Of a stretch of 64,000 bases of DNA, positions 1,766 to 9,100 are shown one piece after another. The stretch's first letter is position 1. Every line of letters begins with the position of its first letter. The translations under genes and the position numbers were made by a program. The stretch is from Paenarthrobacter nicotinovorans. GTDB taxonomy: Bacteria; Actinomycetota; Actinomycetes; Actinomycetales; Micrococcaceae. The notes under the pieces are model-generated. The model was not told the origin of the DNA. It made no database searches and saw only the letters and a list, made by a program, of their open reading frames with translations. The stretch spans positions 1,798,001-1,862,000 of the forward strand of contig NZ_CP089293.1 of the NCBI RefSeq assembly GCF_021919345.1, written 5' to 3'.

Positions 1766-2752
1766 CTAACCGAGCAGACCGGGCACAATCAACAGTGCTG
1801 TGGGAACGGCCAGCAGCATCGCCGAGGCAGCAAGGACCAGTACCCTCAGCCCCTTGGTGAGGGGCGGCTGCGGCGAGAGCAGGCGGCTGACGCGTGACGC
1901 CGTCGTGCGCGGTGAATCGGCACCTCCGGTGGCGCTGACACCGTTGCCCTCGACGACGGCGCCACCACCCTTCAGCGCGGCGGCGCTGACGGCCGGCTGG
2001 GAGCTGCCGCTGGCTACGATGGCGATGGCCTTGATGAGCGTGCCCTTGCTTTCGGTCCGAAGCGCGACGTCGTCCGCCAGCATCTCGATCAGGGAGTTCA
2101 CGGCTGTCTGGGCGAGGCGGGTTGTGGGAAACCAGGGGAGGGCCTGGCGCCAGGCAGCGAAGGCCCACAGCAAGAGATCGTGCCGCTGGGAAAGATGGGC
2201 GTTCTCATGGATGAGGACGGCCCGCAGCTCGGCTGGATCGAGTGCGGCCATGAGGCCATCGGACAGGACCGTGACCGAACGGGCGCCGCCGGGCAGGCAG
2301 TAAGCAACCGGGGACTCATGGTTGATCACGACGGTCCCGGGACCGTCGTCGGAGGGTGATGCCAGCAGCGCGAGAAGTTCCCGGTGCCGGCGACGCTGGC
2401 GCTCGATCTTGTAGTACGTCAGCAACAGGGTGAAAACGAGATGCGCGGTCAGGAGTGCGGCGGCGGAGAGGGCAAAAAGGTGCCAGAAACCCAAAGCAGT
2501 GGTGGGCTCATTGTTGAACACCATTCCGGCCAGGCTCCTGAGGCCGGCAAGGAGGTTGTCGCCAATCGGTTCCAGACCGTAGACCAGCATGGCGCCGATC
2601 ATCGACAATCCACCGGCAAGGGCTATGGCCTGCCACAGCACCATGGCGGTGAAGGGCGACCGTGCCGGCCACTGTGCGCGCGACAGCAGGACGGGAACCG
2701 GCCACGCCAGAATCAATGCCAGGACCGCAAGCAGGTATGAGGTCCAGAACAT
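1766..2752 (-). CDS. M56 family (BlaR1-like) membrane metallopeptidase
   Basis: A 328-residue membrane protein with hydrophobic segments near 1-22, 35-58, 90-113 and 300-328, and a zinc protease motif HENAH at residues 182-186 in a cytoplasmic loop. In the BlaR1/MecR1 family this gluzincin-type site cleaves a cognate BlaI/MecI repressor after a signal is sensed. No extracellular beta-lactam-binding domain is present, so the signal is probably not a beta-lactam. The gene starts 5 bases after the stop of the BlaI-type gene at 2758-3144, so the two form a repressor-protease pair transcribed together. Confidence 0.88.
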   Translation of the reverse strand: MFWTSYLLAVLALILAWPVPVLLSRAQWPARSPFTAMVLWQAIALAGGLSMIGAMLVYGLEPIGDNLLAGLRSLAGMVFNNEPTTALGFWHLFALSAAALLTAHLVFTLLLTYYKIERQRRRHRELLALLASPSDDGPGTVVINHESPVAYCLPGGARSVTVLSDGLMAALDPAELRAVLIHENAHLSQRHDLLLWAFAAWRQALPWFPTTRLAQTAVNSLIEMLADDVALRTESKGTLIKAIAIVASGSSQPAVSAAALKGGGAVVEGNGVSATGGADSPRTTASRVSRLLSPQPPLTKGLRVLVLAASAMLLAVPTALLIVPGLLG

Positions 2753-2757
2753 AGTGG

Positions 2758-3144
2758 CTAATTGTAGCCGAGCAGTTTGCGCAGGGTAGCGGCTTCACTT
2801 TCGGTGACGGAGCCAATGAAGCGGGCAAGGACAGCCTCACGGTCCGGAGCGGAGCCCAGGACTTCGTGCATCAGTTCTGCAGTGTGGTCGGCGCGGCTGG
2901 AGACTGCCTGGTAACGGTGCGGGCGCGTTCCCCGCTCGCGTTCCACCAGACCCTTCTTTTCCAGGCGTGACAGCACGGTCAGGACGGTGGTTACTGCCAG
3001 GTCTTTGCCTTGATGGCCTGCGGTGCCGTCGCCGGCCTCCGAGTCCTGCGCCAGAAGATCGCGCAGCGTATTGGCGGTTGCAGCTTCCTGGCCTGCCCAG
3101 AGCAGATCCATCACTGCCCGTTCCAGTTCCCCAAGACTTGCCAT
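2758..3144 (-). CDS. BlaI/MecI-type transcriptional repressor
   Basis: This encodes a 128-residue winged-helix repressor beginning MASLGELERAVMDLLW, which matches the BlaI/MecI fold: an N-terminal winged helix (about 1-75, with VTTVLTVLSRLEKKGLV as recognition region) and a C-terminal dimerisation part. ATG at 3144 is chosen because it gives normal family length and follows a purine-rich ribosome site. Longer upstream reading would run through the operators. The divergent neighbour is cydA, and the intergenic region holds three dyads of the BlaI-binding type. Inference: it represses itself, the M56 gene and cytochrome bd, and is inactivated by M56 cleavage. Confidence 0.88.
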   Translation of the reverse strand: MASLGELERAVMDLLWAGQEAATANTLRDLLAQDSEAGDGTAGHQGKDLAVTTVLTVLSRLEKKGLVERERGTRPHRYQAVSSRADHTAELMHEVLGSAPDREAVLARFIGSVTESEAATLRKLLGYN

Positions 3145-3242
3145 CGTTACTTCCCTACCTTCCGCTTCCTGCTGCAGGGTTACTGCCGCAGGGAGCGATG
3201 ATCCAACATTCCACAATAAATCTACCGCTTTTCCTACGTTGA

Positions 3243-3259
3243 TTCTACGTGAGGTAGAA
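3243..3259. promoter_or_regulatory. BlaI-type operator 1 (repressor side)
   Basis: Perfect inverted repeat TTCTAC-N5-GTAGAA about 100 bases upstream of the repressor gene. On the minus strand it contains TAGAAT, a possible -10 element. The arms are the same as those of the two sites in front of cydA. Confidence 0.75.
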
Positions 3260-3341
3260 CTGTCGGCGCGCCGCCACGCCCGGTGACCTCTTGCGCGTGG
3301 CCGATGCCACTTGAAGAATGGGTTTCGTTGCCCGGCATTTG

Positions 3342-3358
3342 TTCTACACTGTGTAGAA
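3342..3358. promoter_or_regulatory. BlaI-type operator 2 (cyd side)
   Basis: Perfect inverted repeat TTCTAC-N5-GTAGAA located 66 bases before the cydA start codon. Its centre lies 25 bp from that of operator 3, so two dimers could bind side by side over the cyd promoter. Confidence 0.75.
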
Positions 3359-3366
3359 GAGAAGTT

Positions 3367-3383
3367 TTCTACGCCATGTAGAA
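3367..3383. promoter_or_regulatory. BlaI-type operator 3 (cyd side)
   Basis: Third perfect TTCTAC-N5-GTAGAA dyad, directly before a possible -10 element (TAACGT at 3385-3390) of the cyd operon. Occupancy would block RNA polymerase. Confidence 0.75.
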
Positions 3384-3424
3384 CTAACGTCATCGTACTT
3401 CGGTCCACCGCACAAAGGACAGCC

Positions 3425-5029
3425 ATGGACGCCTTGGAAATCGCACGCTGGCAATTCGGTATCACTACCGTTTACCACTTCATGATGGTGCCCCTCACCA
3501 TTGGGCTGGGTTTGGTCGTGGCCATCATCCAGACAATGTGGTACCGCACGGGCAAGCCCGAGTACCTGCGCATGACCAAGTTCTGGGGAAAGCTCTTCCT
3601 GATCAACTTCATCATGGGCGTGGCCACCGGCATCGTCCAGGAATTCCAGTTCGGCATGGCCTGGAGTGAGTACAGCCGCTTCGTCGGTGACGTGTTCGGG
3701 GCGCCCCTCGCTCTCGAAGCGCTGCTGGCATTCTTCGTGGAGTCCACGTTCCTTGGGCTTTGGATCTTTGGCTGGAAGCAACTGAAGCGCGGCGTCCACC
3801 TCGCCTGCCTGTGGATCGCGGTCATCGGCTCGGTCTTCTCTGCCTACTTCATCATTGTGGCCAACTCCTGGATGCAGCACCCCGTGGGAGTTGAAATGGT
3901 GGACGGACGCCCCGTCATGACCGACGCCTGGGCCGTCTTCACCAACAACACTGCCCTGGTAGCGGTGCCCCACACCCTGTTTGGTGCGCTGGCCGTCGCC
4001 GGAGCCTTCCTCCTGGGAATCGCCTGGTACCACCTGTGGCGTCGGCGCCACGATGGGATCGACACCGTGGGCAAGGACGGCCGGATCATTCCCGGTGATG
4101 CGCCGCAGATCCCCGGGCGGGACAAAGCCGACTACACAGTCTGGATGAAGTCCCTGCGCATCGGCGCCGTCGTGGCCATGATTTCCTTCGCAGGAACGGC
4201 CTTCACCGGCGACCTCCAAGGCAAGCTCATGTTCGAACAGCAGCCCATGAAGATGGCTGCAGCGGAAGCGGCCTGCCACGATGGAACAGGGTTCTCGATA
4301 CTGAGCGTCGGAAACGTGGGCTCCTCCAACTGTGAAGATGTCGTGGCCGTCATCGAAGTGCCGGGCATCCTCTCCTTCCTGGCCAAGGGAGACTTCACCA
4401 CCGAGGTCAAGGGAGTCAACAGCCTGCTCGGCGAGTACAAAGAGAAGTACGGCACCAATCTGCCGGACAACCCGCTCTACGGCGACCGCGCCGGACAGGA
4501 AATCCAATACGTTCCCGTCATGGAAGTGACCTACTGGGGCTTCCGCATGATGATCGGATTCGGCGGCGTCGCAGCCCTGGCCGCGCTGCTGGCCCTCTGG
4601 GTAACGCGTAAGGGCGTAGTCCCGGAGTCCAAGTGGCTCATGCGGATTGCGGTCTTCGGAATCCTGGCGCCCTTTGGCGCCAACGCCGCAGGCTGGATCT
4701 TCACCGAAATGGGCCGGCAGCCGTTCGTCGTTGCCCCTAATCCGGACATGAACGGCATCGACCAGGTCTTCATGTTCACCGCCGCTGCGGTGTCCCCAGG
4801 GGTCAGCGCAGGGGAGATCCTGACTTCGCTGGTAGTGCTTACGGCAATCTACGCGGTGCTGCTGGTGGTGGAAGTGAAGCTGCTGGTCAAATATGTCCGC
4901 GGTGGCGTTGCTTCCGCGATGCCGGAACTGGGGCATGGCAAAGACAAGGACGGGTCCCCGAACGGGGATGGCAAAGACAACGACACCCCGGACAAGTCCG
5001 GCGACGACGTCCTGGCATTCGCTTACTAG
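3425..5029 (+). CDS. cydA: Cytochrome bd ubiquinol/menaquinol oxidase subunit I
   Basis: A 534-residue membrane oxidase subunit that takes electrons from quinol and reduces oxygen at haem b595/d. Visible landmarks are the haem ligand His18, a second His in AVPHTLFG, the Q-loop segment EQQPMKMAAAE, the haem-ligating Met in FRMMIG and the signature GWIFTEMGRQPF. Two cysteines, residues 284 and 303, lie 19 apart in the Q-loop region, the spacing I recall for the disulfide pair of mycobacterial CydA. ATG at 3425 is preferred because MDALEIARWQF is the standard N-terminus and a good ribosome site (AAAGGA) precedes it. First gene of cydABDC, under BlaI-type operators. Confidence 0.97.
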   Translation: MDALEIARWQFGITTVYHFMMVPLTIGLGLVVAIIQTMWYRTGKPEYLRMTKFWGKLFLINFIMGVATGIVQEFQFGMAWSEYSRFVGDVFGAPLALEALLAFFVESTFLGLWIFGWKQLKRGVHLACLWIAVIGSVFSAYFIIVANSWMQHPVGVEMVDGRPVMTDAWAVFTNNTALVAVPHTLFGALAVAGAFLLGIAWYHLWRRRHDGIDTVGKDGRIIPGDAPQIPGRDKADYTVWMKSLRIGAVVAMISFAGTAFTGDLQGKLMFEQQPMKMAAAEAACHDGTGFSILSVGNVGSSNCEDVVAVIEVPGILSFLAKGDFTTEVKGVNSLLGEYKEKYGTNLPDNPLYGDRAGQEIQYVPVMEVTYWGFRMMIGFGGVAALAALLALWVTRKGVVPESKWLMRIAVFGILAPFGANAAGWIFTEMGRQPFVVAPNPDMNGIDQVFMFTAAAVSPGVSAGEILTSLVVLTAIYAVLLVVEVKLLVKYVRGGVASAMPELGHGKDKDGSPNGDGKDNDTPDKSGDDVLAFAY

Positions 5030-6137: not shown

Positions 6138-9100
6138 ATGAAACCGGTGTTTCCTTCCGGACAGGCCACCCGCTCGGCGCTCTACGTCCTGGGGCTGATG
6201 TCCGCGCTCAAAGCGCTGTCCCTTGTCCTGATGGCGCAGGCTGTGGCCGCAATGCTCGCCGGTCTCGCAGCGGGTTCCGGTGACTGGAACAGCGACCTGC
6301 TGTGGGGTGCGGCCGGGGCCGTGCTGCGGTCACTGACCGTGTGGGGACAAGGAATTGCGGCACGTCACGCCGCTCTGGGGGTCAAAGAGGAACTACGCGT
6401 GCGGCTGCTCAGGCGGTCCCTGGACGACGGCGGTTCGGCCCCTGTTGAAGGAATGAACAACGGCGGCCTGGCGATACTGGCGACGCGCGGGCTGGATGCG
6501 CTGGACGACTACTACACCCAGTACCTTCCCGCCTTGGTCAATTGCGCCACGGTTCCCTTATTGATCGGAGCGCGGATCCTCTTCGCCGACTGGGTAAGCG
6601 CCGTGGTCATCGTCCTGACTGTGCCGTTGGTGCCCCTGTTCATGGTGTTGATCGGACGACACACCGAAGACCGCGTCCGGGATGCGCAAACCACCCTGCG
6701 GAAACTCTCCGGCCACATCCTGGAACTGGCCAAGGGGCTGCCCGTATTGGTGGGGCTCGGCCGCGCCAGCGAGCAACGCGCCGCATTGGAAGACATCTCC
6801 GAGCAGTACCGCAGCAGGACCATGGGCACGCTCCGCACTGCTTTTCTCTCCGCGCTTGCCCTTGAACTCATCGCCACCATCTCGGTAGCCGTGGTTGCAG
6901 TATTCATCGGTGTCCGGCTCGTAGCAGGGGACATGGCCCTGGAAGCGGGCCTCCTGGCCTTGATCCTCGCCCCTGACTGCTACTTGCCACTGCGGGAGCT
7001 CGGCACCGCGCATCACGCCAGCGACGACGGCCGGGCAGCCCTCGAAACAACCAACGCCGTACTGGAAGCTCCCCGGCACCGACGCGTCACGGACGCGACG
7101 CGCCGTACGGAGCCCGCCGACGTCGTCGTCAGCGACTTGTCGGTGACGTACCGCGGCAGGACCGCTGCCGCCGTCGGACCGCTCGACTTCACTGCCCCGC
7201 AGGGGAGCATCACAGCCCTCGACGGCGACAGCGGCGCCGGAAAGAGCACCGTCCTGGGAGTGCTGGCGGGACTCATCGGCAACGGGCCGGGAGCCCGCGT
7301 CACAGGCACCGTGGCGGGGGTGGCTCCTGCAGCCGTGGCCTGGGTTCCGCAGCATCCCGTCATGGCAGCCGACAACGTGCAGAAGGAGATCGAGCTCTAC
7401 CTTGACGGGTTCGAAGGCAACACTGCCGAAGCGGTGGCCAAGATCCTCAGCAGGGCATCCGCCGGACACCTGGCAGCGAAGCACCCGGCTGAACTAAGCC
7501 CGGGCGAACTGCGCCGTGTGGCCTTGGCCCGCGGTCTGGCCCGCGTCGAGGCAGGCGCAACGCTGCTGCTCCTCGATGAGCCCACCGCTCACCTGGACGA
7601 CGACTCGGCCGCGGCCGTCCGTCGCGCCATCGAATCGCTTCGCGGCACGGCCACCGTCATCCTGGTGGCCCACGACTCCGCCACCCGTGCGCTCGCTGAC
7701 CACCTTGTAGCCATCGGACACAAGGCAACACCTGCCGGGACAGCCGCCGCGGCCGCCGCGCAGCCGGTCGCCTTGACCGCAACGGACACCGCACGGGACA
7801 CCGCGCGGGAACCGGCTGTGGCCCTCGGCAGTGCCGGGCCGTTCAACGTCACGGACCGGTCGCGTGCCGGCAGCGTTCGCCTCCTGGCGGGCATCCTCAA
7901 ACCCGTCCGCTGGAAGTTCGCAGCCGCCGGCGTCGTGGCGGTGCTGGCCGCACTGTTCGCCGTCGCCCTGTCCGGCCTGTCCGGTTGGCTCATCATCAGG
8001 GCCAGTCAGCAACCACCCATCCTCTACCTACTGGGCGCCATCGTTGGCGTCAGGTTCTTCGGCATCGGACGGGCCGTGCTGCGGTACTGCGAACGTCTCC
8101 TGACCCACGACGCCGTGTTCGCGGCCATGACACGGCTTCGCGGATCGCTCTGGTCAACCCTGAGCCTGCGGGCGTTGTCGCTGCGGCGCCTGCTGCAGGG
8201 CGGAAACGTTTTGGGATCGATCGTGGACGATGTCGATACACTCCGCGACCTCCTGCCCAGGGTGGCCCTGCCACCCCTTACTGCGGTAGGAGTTGGCGGC
8301 GCGGCCATCGCAGCGACCGCCATCGTCGTGCCTGCCGCGTTGCCCGCCGTGGTGATCGCCGCCGTGGTGGGACTGGTGGTTGCTCCTGCCCTGGCTGTCC
8401 TGGCTGACCGGAACGCCGCACAGGCCGAACGACAGCTGCGCTCGGTGGTGCTCCGGGGAGTTGCTGCGGCACTGGATGCGCGGGCTGAACTGAGTGCCAA
8501 CAACGTCAGCGAAACGGTGATCGGATCACTGGAGGGCAAAGACCGGGCCGCCACCGTGTCGGCCAAGCGCGCCGCATGGGCCGAGGGTCTGGGCCAGGCA
8601 GTGATCGTCCTCGCGTGTTCTTTGTCGGCACTCTGGGCAGGCGCCCTCAGCGCTCCCTCCGTGCTCGAGGGTACGGTGGCTCCGGAGCTCGCCGCTGTCA
8701 TTGTCCTGATGCTGCTGGCTCTGGTGGAACCCTTCGCGGGCATCGTCTCCGCGACGCGTCAGGCACCGGCGCTCGCGGCCGTCCTGGGAAAGGTGGCCTC
8801 CTCCGGCGCTTTGGACTCAACGGACGGTCCCCGGGGCCGGGAAAACCACGACGACGGTCCGCTGCCTTTGCCTGACCGGCCCGGCCGGGAGGGACTCGAG
8901 TTGCGCGGTGCGGCTGCAGCGTGGCCAGGAGGGCCCACCGTCATCTCCGGACTCGACGCCGTGGCCGCACCGGGCCGCTGGTTGGCCGTCACGGGACCGT
9001 CCGGGGCCGGCAAATCCACACTGCTCTCGGTCCTGCTGGGCTTCCTTCCCCTCACGGAAGGAACGGCAAAGCTGACCGGTACTGCCGCGTGGTGCCCGCA

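Follow-up and report, generated by a model that had tools for sequence, protein, structure and literature searches.

A BlaI repressor and an M56 protease without a drug sensor appear to switch cytochrome bd through one conserved palindrome in Arthrobacter-related soil bacteria and many other Actinomycetes

Results

The blaI-cydA region contains three identical operator-like dyads

Genomes of Arthrobacter-related soil bacteria and of many other Actinomycetes suggest that a BlaI-type repressor and an M56 protease switch cytochrome bd through one conserved palindrome and that, near the Arthrobacter group, they also switch genes for haem synthesis and nitric-oxide defence. Our preferred reading, to which we assign a probability of about 80%, is that BlaI represses a regulon of respiration and haem genes via TTCTAC-N5-GTAGAA operators, and that the M56 protease, which lacks a sensor domain, relieves this repression in response to a respiratory or membrane signal. 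We observed the operators, their conservation, targets that recur between genomes, covariation of the operator with the BlaI recognition helix, and an intact protease motif. The window, the whole 64-kb stretch of DNA analysed here, contains the following features, with gene identities taken from Pfam and NCBIfam profiles.

1766..2752, minus strand: M56 membrane metalloprotease (BlaR1-like), 328 aa; PF05569, PF01435, HENAH motif
2758..3144, minus strand: blaI, BlaI-type winged-helix repressor, 128 aa; PF03965
3243..3259, unstranded: predicted operator dyad A, blaI side; perfect TTCTAC-N5-GTAGAA
3342..3358, unstranded: predicted operator dyad B, cydA side; perfect TTCTAC-N5-GTAGAA
3367..3383, unstranded: predicted operator dyad C, cydA side; perfect, 25 bp from B, start to start
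3425..5029, plus strand: cydA; PF01654, 506.7 bits
5048..6130, plus strand: cydB; PF02322, 342 bits
6138..9557 (start inferred), plus strand: fused cydD-cydC exporter in a single ORF; TIGR02857, 677.6 bits, and TIGR02868, 588.3 bits

The repressor belongs to the Penicillinase_R family (PF03965, 73.9 bits against a cut-off of 22.6), has 2g9w as its nearest solved structure (58.4 bits), and is 99-100% identical to the BlaI of several Paenarthrobacter strains. Since the whole genome (4.48 Mb) encodes one BlaI and one M56 protein, there is one obvious candidate binder for the dyad.

The initial annotation had described three perfect dyads of one layout between blaI-M56 and cydABDC, and this description was exact. 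Dyads A to C are the sole matches to TTCTAC-N5-GTAGAA in the window, even when two mismatches are allowed. Dinucleotide shuffles of the window gave 0.46 expected matches with up to two mismatches, and 3 of 100 shuffles reached three. Genome-wide, there are eight perfect dyads, compared with one match for a reversed control pattern. The dyads in the blaI-cydA region are not due to chance. A sigma-70 scan around them recognised no promoter-like site.

The dyads are invariant within the Arthrobacter group

We analysed the best 80 of 164 BlaI-encoding named loci from Arthrobacter, Paenarthrobacter and Pseudarthrobacter, with BlaI proteins 88-100% identical. The blaI-side dyad was perfect in all 80. 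The initial annotation had proposed looking for the dyad upstream of cydA in relatives; it is kept there together with the gene order, and both cydA-side dyads were perfect in 78/78 loci with cydA in reach. L077 and L079, where cydA is absent from the fetched stretch, have a single dyad each. Dyads with one or two mismatches did not occur in the scanned intervals of the 80 loci, and the half-site bases are therefore invariant across 236 sites. Conservation of the flanking columns mostly dropped to 0.3-0.8, the exceptions being a TG preceding dyad B, invariant in 78 loci, and a few columns beside A. The spacing of the twin dyads B and C varied from 23 to 26 bp. In L080 and L081, blaI and cydA are 3.5-3.8 kb apart, the twin dyads remain at cydA, and both operator sets are kept.

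The operator accompanies blaI-linked cydA across the class

We next asked how far the arrangement extends. In an order-level sample of 119 genomes, cydA was present in 110 and a BlaI domain in 60. Counting co-occurrence on the 70 strong of 92 BlaI rows only, 49 genomes encode both genes, within 8 kb of each other in 41 and unlinked in 8. The 41 close pairs comprise 35 that are divergent within 1 kb and 6 with other arrangements. In five of these six, all from family f16, cydA, cydB and cydDC pieces, in this order, precede blaI in the same orientation; M56 comes next on that strand in four and is on the opposite strand in G090. The sixth (L346) encodes, all in one direction, a cydA paralog, a cydB-like gene, blaI and M56, and a TTCTAC dyad lies upstream. 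In a class-level sample of 158 genomes, BlaI was found in 97 and CydA in 102, and divergent blaI-cydA pairs recur in families f35, f40 and f42.

We generalised the pattern by eye from the order-level loci to TWCKAC-N5-GTMGWA, extended it to the class-level loci, and scored a site when at least 11 of 12 positions matched within 400 bp upstream of cydA. A cydA start was present in 110 of 120 fetched loci (L129-L248). Loci with blaI in the stretch had a site before cydA in 52/55 cases, 51 of them at 12/12, compared with 11/55 for loci without blaI in the stretch; mononucleotide shuffles gave about 0.2-0.3 expected sites per 55 loci for either set. In the class-level linked loci, which are independent of the pattern definition, the site was present in 19/20. 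The 11 unlinked sites are accounted for by f21 (9/9 regions) and f32 (2/2 regions), and every one of these genomes holds a BlaI. Where blaI lies downstream, the cydA operator is kept as well, at 12/12 in L163, L164 and L166 and at 11/12 in L167.

BlaI might autoregulate blaI-M56 only, the intergenic region being shared because cydA is transcribed divergently next to it. As 35 of the 49 genomes have the divergent arrangement, such a shared region is common. However, this explanation does not account for cydA operators where 3.5-3.8 kb separate the gene from blaI (L080, L081), where blaI lies downstream (L163, L164, L166, L167) or where it is elsewhere in the genome (f21, f32). Nor does it account for G036 (family f18), where cydDC is separated from cydAB by blaI-M56 and has a dyad of its own; the identification of this cydDC gene comes from a fragment scoring 379.9 bits with TIGR02857, against a cut-off of 435. 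A gene 76% identical to it in G107 also has its own dyad. We therefore consider pure autoregulation very improbable.

The operator was absent at three linked loci: L150, L151 and L207. L150 and L151, both from family f6, have divergent blaI//cydA without a dyad of this class, unlike other f6 genomes. At least 12 genomes encode BlaI elsewhere and have no cydA dyad (G001, G041, G084, G089, G098, G129, G133, G157, G162, G207, G242 and G258), three of them from f34; in G089 a dyad is present at a cydA paralog and none at the main cydA. These counter-examples rule out that BlaI anywhere in a genome predicts a cyd dyad; BlaI thus does not regulate cyd universally. A universal TTCTAC half-site was likewise ruled out, as other families use TACKAC.

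The dyad class changes with the BlaI recognition helix

We compared 70 BlaI proteins, of which 66 came from the window, from linked loci or from f21 and four were added. The dyad class of each was set by all 12/12 sites in the fetched stretch, giving 17 TTC-class loci, 46 TAC-class loci and 7 without a 12/12 site. Residue 51 is tyrosine in 46/46 TAC-class and 0/17 TTC-class loci, and residue 55 is methionine in 46/46 TAC-class loci and leucine or histidine in the 17 TTC-class loci. Columns 24, 25, 62, 75 and 107 also separate both classes fully, and kinship is ignored in all of these counts. Positions 51 and 55 fall in a stretch aligned with 2g9w and MecI that we take to be the recognition helix.

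G117 has two BlaI paralogs, and both obey the same residue rule, with the cyd-linked BlaI (L144) in the TAC class and the other (L347) in the TTC class. The second blaI-M56 pair (L347, G117:C20:113000-121500) lies, as judged by eye, beside an HMA-type metal-ATPase-like ORF, with TTCTAC twin dyads at 5014 and 5046 and another dyad at 7530, which suggests that dyads of this class also work with a metal-linked paralog.

A different regulator could bind the dyads and BlaI be incidental; other regulators of cydAB are known, for example SenX3-RegX3 in mycobacteria (PMC5874750). Against this stand the presence of the dyads at blaI itself, the change of dyad class with recognition-helix residues, and the lack of a cydA site in all 32 regions whose genomes have no strong BlaI match, so that it would be most surprising if BlaI were a bystander. 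The control of cytochrome bd by BlaI/M56 advanced in the initial annotation gains from the same data: the dyads are conserved, remain at cydA even in loci with a distant or downstream blaI, and covary with the helix.

The dyad marks cydA, blaI and ATP synthase genes in mycobacteria-like genomes

The seven fetched f21 blaI loci encode BlaI proteins 79-94% identical to the 2g9w stretch. Because of this identity, and because 2g9w is M. tuberculosis BlaI, we take f21 to be mycobacterial. All seven blaI promoters carry the dyad, one at 11/12, and blaI is unlinked to the dyad-bearing cydA regions of this family. In four f21 genomes, TACTAC-N5-GTMGTA occurs at three or four places per genome: at cydA in 4/4, at blaI in 3/4, and upstream of the ATP synthase subunit a gene in 4/4, the latter gene sharing 79-80% identity with the one of L277 in two genomes but only 24% in G213. 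The dyads of L281 and L282 from the same scan had no clear tie to a gene.

In three papers (PMC5473688, PMC5874750, PMC7924339), the targets of M. tuberculosis BlaI are given as blaC, ATP synthase and cytochrome bd; PMC5473688 (2017) cites Sala 2009 for binding to the cytochrome bd and ATP synthase promoters. The f21 dyads thus fall on published BlaI targets and serve as an independent positive control. A direct link to cytochrome bd, which the initial annotation had offered as new, was already in print for M. tuberculosis (PMC5473688, citing Sala 2009). Among the literature matches listed, which mostly fall outside subscription papers, we found neither the divergent blaI-M56//cyd arrangement and its spread nor a hemQ/hmp/ResA regulon described, and the relevant excerpts of PMC8765290 and PMC7058343 do not mention BlaI control. 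Both the wiring across the class and the regulon of haem and NO genes look new.

Among the closest known systems, M. tuberculosis BlaI/BlaR (Rv1846c/Rv1845c) has the same repressor family, a membrane protease without an extracellular sensor domain, and reported targets that include cytochrome bd and ATP synthase; N5 dyads stand at blaI, cydA and atp in the mycobacteria-like genomes. It differs from the window, where blaI-M56 is divergent from cydABDC, the half-site is TTCTAC instead of TACKAC, and BlaI is 41% identical to 2g9w over the aligned stretch. Unlike in the M. tuberculosis system, dyads in the window's family mark hemQ-hemH, hmp and a ResA-like gene, and none of the eight perfect dyads of the window's genome lies at the ATP synthase operon.

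Dyads mark haem, NO and cytochrome genes in the window's family

Elsewhere in the window's genome, perfect dyads lie 81 bp before hmp (flavohaemoglobin), between an Rrf2-like gene and hmp (L002); 46 bp before hemQ, with hemH next (L006); 40 bp before a His_Phos gene, with a ResA-like gene behind it and YceI in divergent orientation (L007); and 42 bp before a small membrane protein gene (L008). The dyad of L001, near CopC-like and, by eye, TetR-like genes, did not recur in other genomes. Of the one-mismatch dyads in this genome, we looked at L010, L012 and L016 alone. Recurring small membrane proteins are encoded immediately 3' of the dyad in L265 (1104-1448), L012 (1129-1479) and L008 (1115-1459), and these had no Pfam match above cut-off.

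Perfect dyads occur in 21/119 order-level genomes. All 20 listed non-cyd dyads of G081, G005, G023, G095, G036, G107 and G065, genomes that belong to f1 and f18, stand at recurring targets; the list lacks one dyad of G095. Each of the 20 lies 2-91 bp before hemQ, hmp, His_Phos, cydD, a PNPOx-like gene or one of two kinds of small membrane protein gene. Because these loci also supplied some of the query genes, two or three loci support recurrence for the smaller targets, and the neighbourhood sample leaves out some dyads of G038, G109, G067 and G031 and most of those of G117. HemQ is encoded in 41/41 family genomes and the site is upstream in 20 of the 30 loci fetched and missing in 10; for hmp, the site is upstream in 16 of 26 family loci with a clear hmp and missing in 10. 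At L333 the hmp site is 246 bp away and matches at 11/12 positions. Missing sites are mostly found at less similar HemQ or Hmp proteins.

In family f6, only 2 of 19 non-cyd dyads from five genomes mark a gene that is a target in the window's family; both precede ResA-like genes (55 and 62 bp) and come from one genome. This rules out for f6 that the hemQ/hmp targets hold across the order. The remaining f6 dyads have their own recurring neighbours, as judged by eye, with some dyads inside predicted ORFs, hinting that the f6 regulon is rewired. These neighbours (L350-L368) include stress-protein-like, copper-protein-like and membrane ORFs.

The M56 protein resembles BlaR1 without its drug sensor

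The M56 protein matches PF05569 barely above the cut-off (31.4 against 31 bits) and PF01435 (M48) with a higher score (37.7 bits). It has a HENAH motif, HExxH being present in 65/65 relatives; E223 is invariant, and the cysteine of an AYC-x-P motif (C152) occurs in 61/66 sequences. Hydrophobic segments at about residues 6-24, 34-60, 89-111 and 298-323 point to roughly four membrane helices; the protease domain probably lies between the third and fourth, and the chain ends 5 residues past the last segment. There was no Pfam match to a C-terminal extracellular penicillin-binding sensor domain, in agreement with the earlier remark that this protein lacks a beta-lactam-binding domain. The layout suggests what we take to be the BlaR1 topology minus the sensor. 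A solved-structure search with M56 returned nothing at E values up to 1, and a structure model based on 17 close relatives had a mean pLDDT of 42.5, too low for use.

S. aureus BlaI/BlaR1 and MecI/MecR1 combine a Penicillinase_R repressor with an M56 HExxH membrane protease in one locus and use palindromic operators. The window's pair shares repressor, HExxH protease and palindromes with them, but differs in that its M56 protein has no match to a penicillin-binding domain and in that the linked target is respiration instead of beta-lactamase; MecI matches the window's BlaI at 17.5 bits only. The CopY/TcrY copper repressors are related and have TAC/GTA-type operators. The window's BlaI scores 26.9 bits with the CopY/TcrY equivalog model TIGR02698, well below the cut-off of 121.95, and its 128 residues include no cysteine and therefore no CopY metal motif.

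The pair could instead answer cell-wall or beta-lactam stress, with induction of cytochrome bd contributing to antibiotic tolerance. This would fit a statement in PMC5473688 that a beta-lactam combined with an inhibitor raised blaI-blaR and cydAB transcripts in M. tuberculosis. On the other side are the M56 protein without a penicillin-binding domain match and the targets in the window's family, which, among the dyad neighbourhoods inspected, are haem, NO and cytochrome genes. We regard a role in cell-wall stress as unlikely for the window's pair.

Discussion

Our preferred reading remains control of a respiration and haem regulon, and we infer binding, repression, cleavage and the signal from the features described above. 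BlaI dimers would occupy the operators of both the blaI-M56 and the cydABDC promoter and repress the two, and likewise bind and repress hemQ-hemH, hmp, the operon with the His_Phos and ResA-like genes, and the small membrane protein gene. Once a respiratory or membrane signal arrives, M56 would inactivate BlaI, presumably by cleavage, and cytochrome bd, haem supply and NO detoxification would rise together. The list of targets, with an oxidase that needs haem, the last haem enzyme, a ResA-like thiol protein and an NO dioxygenase, suggests that the signal may be NO, cyanide, low oxygen or failing cytochromes. Cytochrome bd aids survival of low oxygen, NO, cyanide and respiratory inhibitors.

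More tentatively, and with somewhat more doubt than belief, we propose that respiratory and haem homeostasis is the ancestral and dominant job of actinobacterial BlaI-M56 pairs, and that beta-lactamase control was recruited later. The sensor-less protease might read the respiratory chain or the membrane directly, perhaps via C152 near the active site. The partners coupled to cytochrome bd would depend on lineage: HemQ, NO removal and the ResA-like gene for the Arthrobacter family, ATP synthase for mycobacteria. Already on the preferred reading, a protein family named for penicillin resistance is recast as mainly a respiratory switch in many Actinomycetes. A conserved operator together with a one-gene sensor candidate makes it directly testable, in harmless soil bacteria, what a BlaR1-like protease without a drug sensor senses.

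One genome of the window's family, G067, has no cydA match and 15 perfect dyads genome-wide. At its locus L345 (G067:C11:9300-15600), blaI-M56 adjoins a gyrA/parC-like ORF, as judged by eye. The regulon of G067 could reveal a cyd-independent role of the pair.
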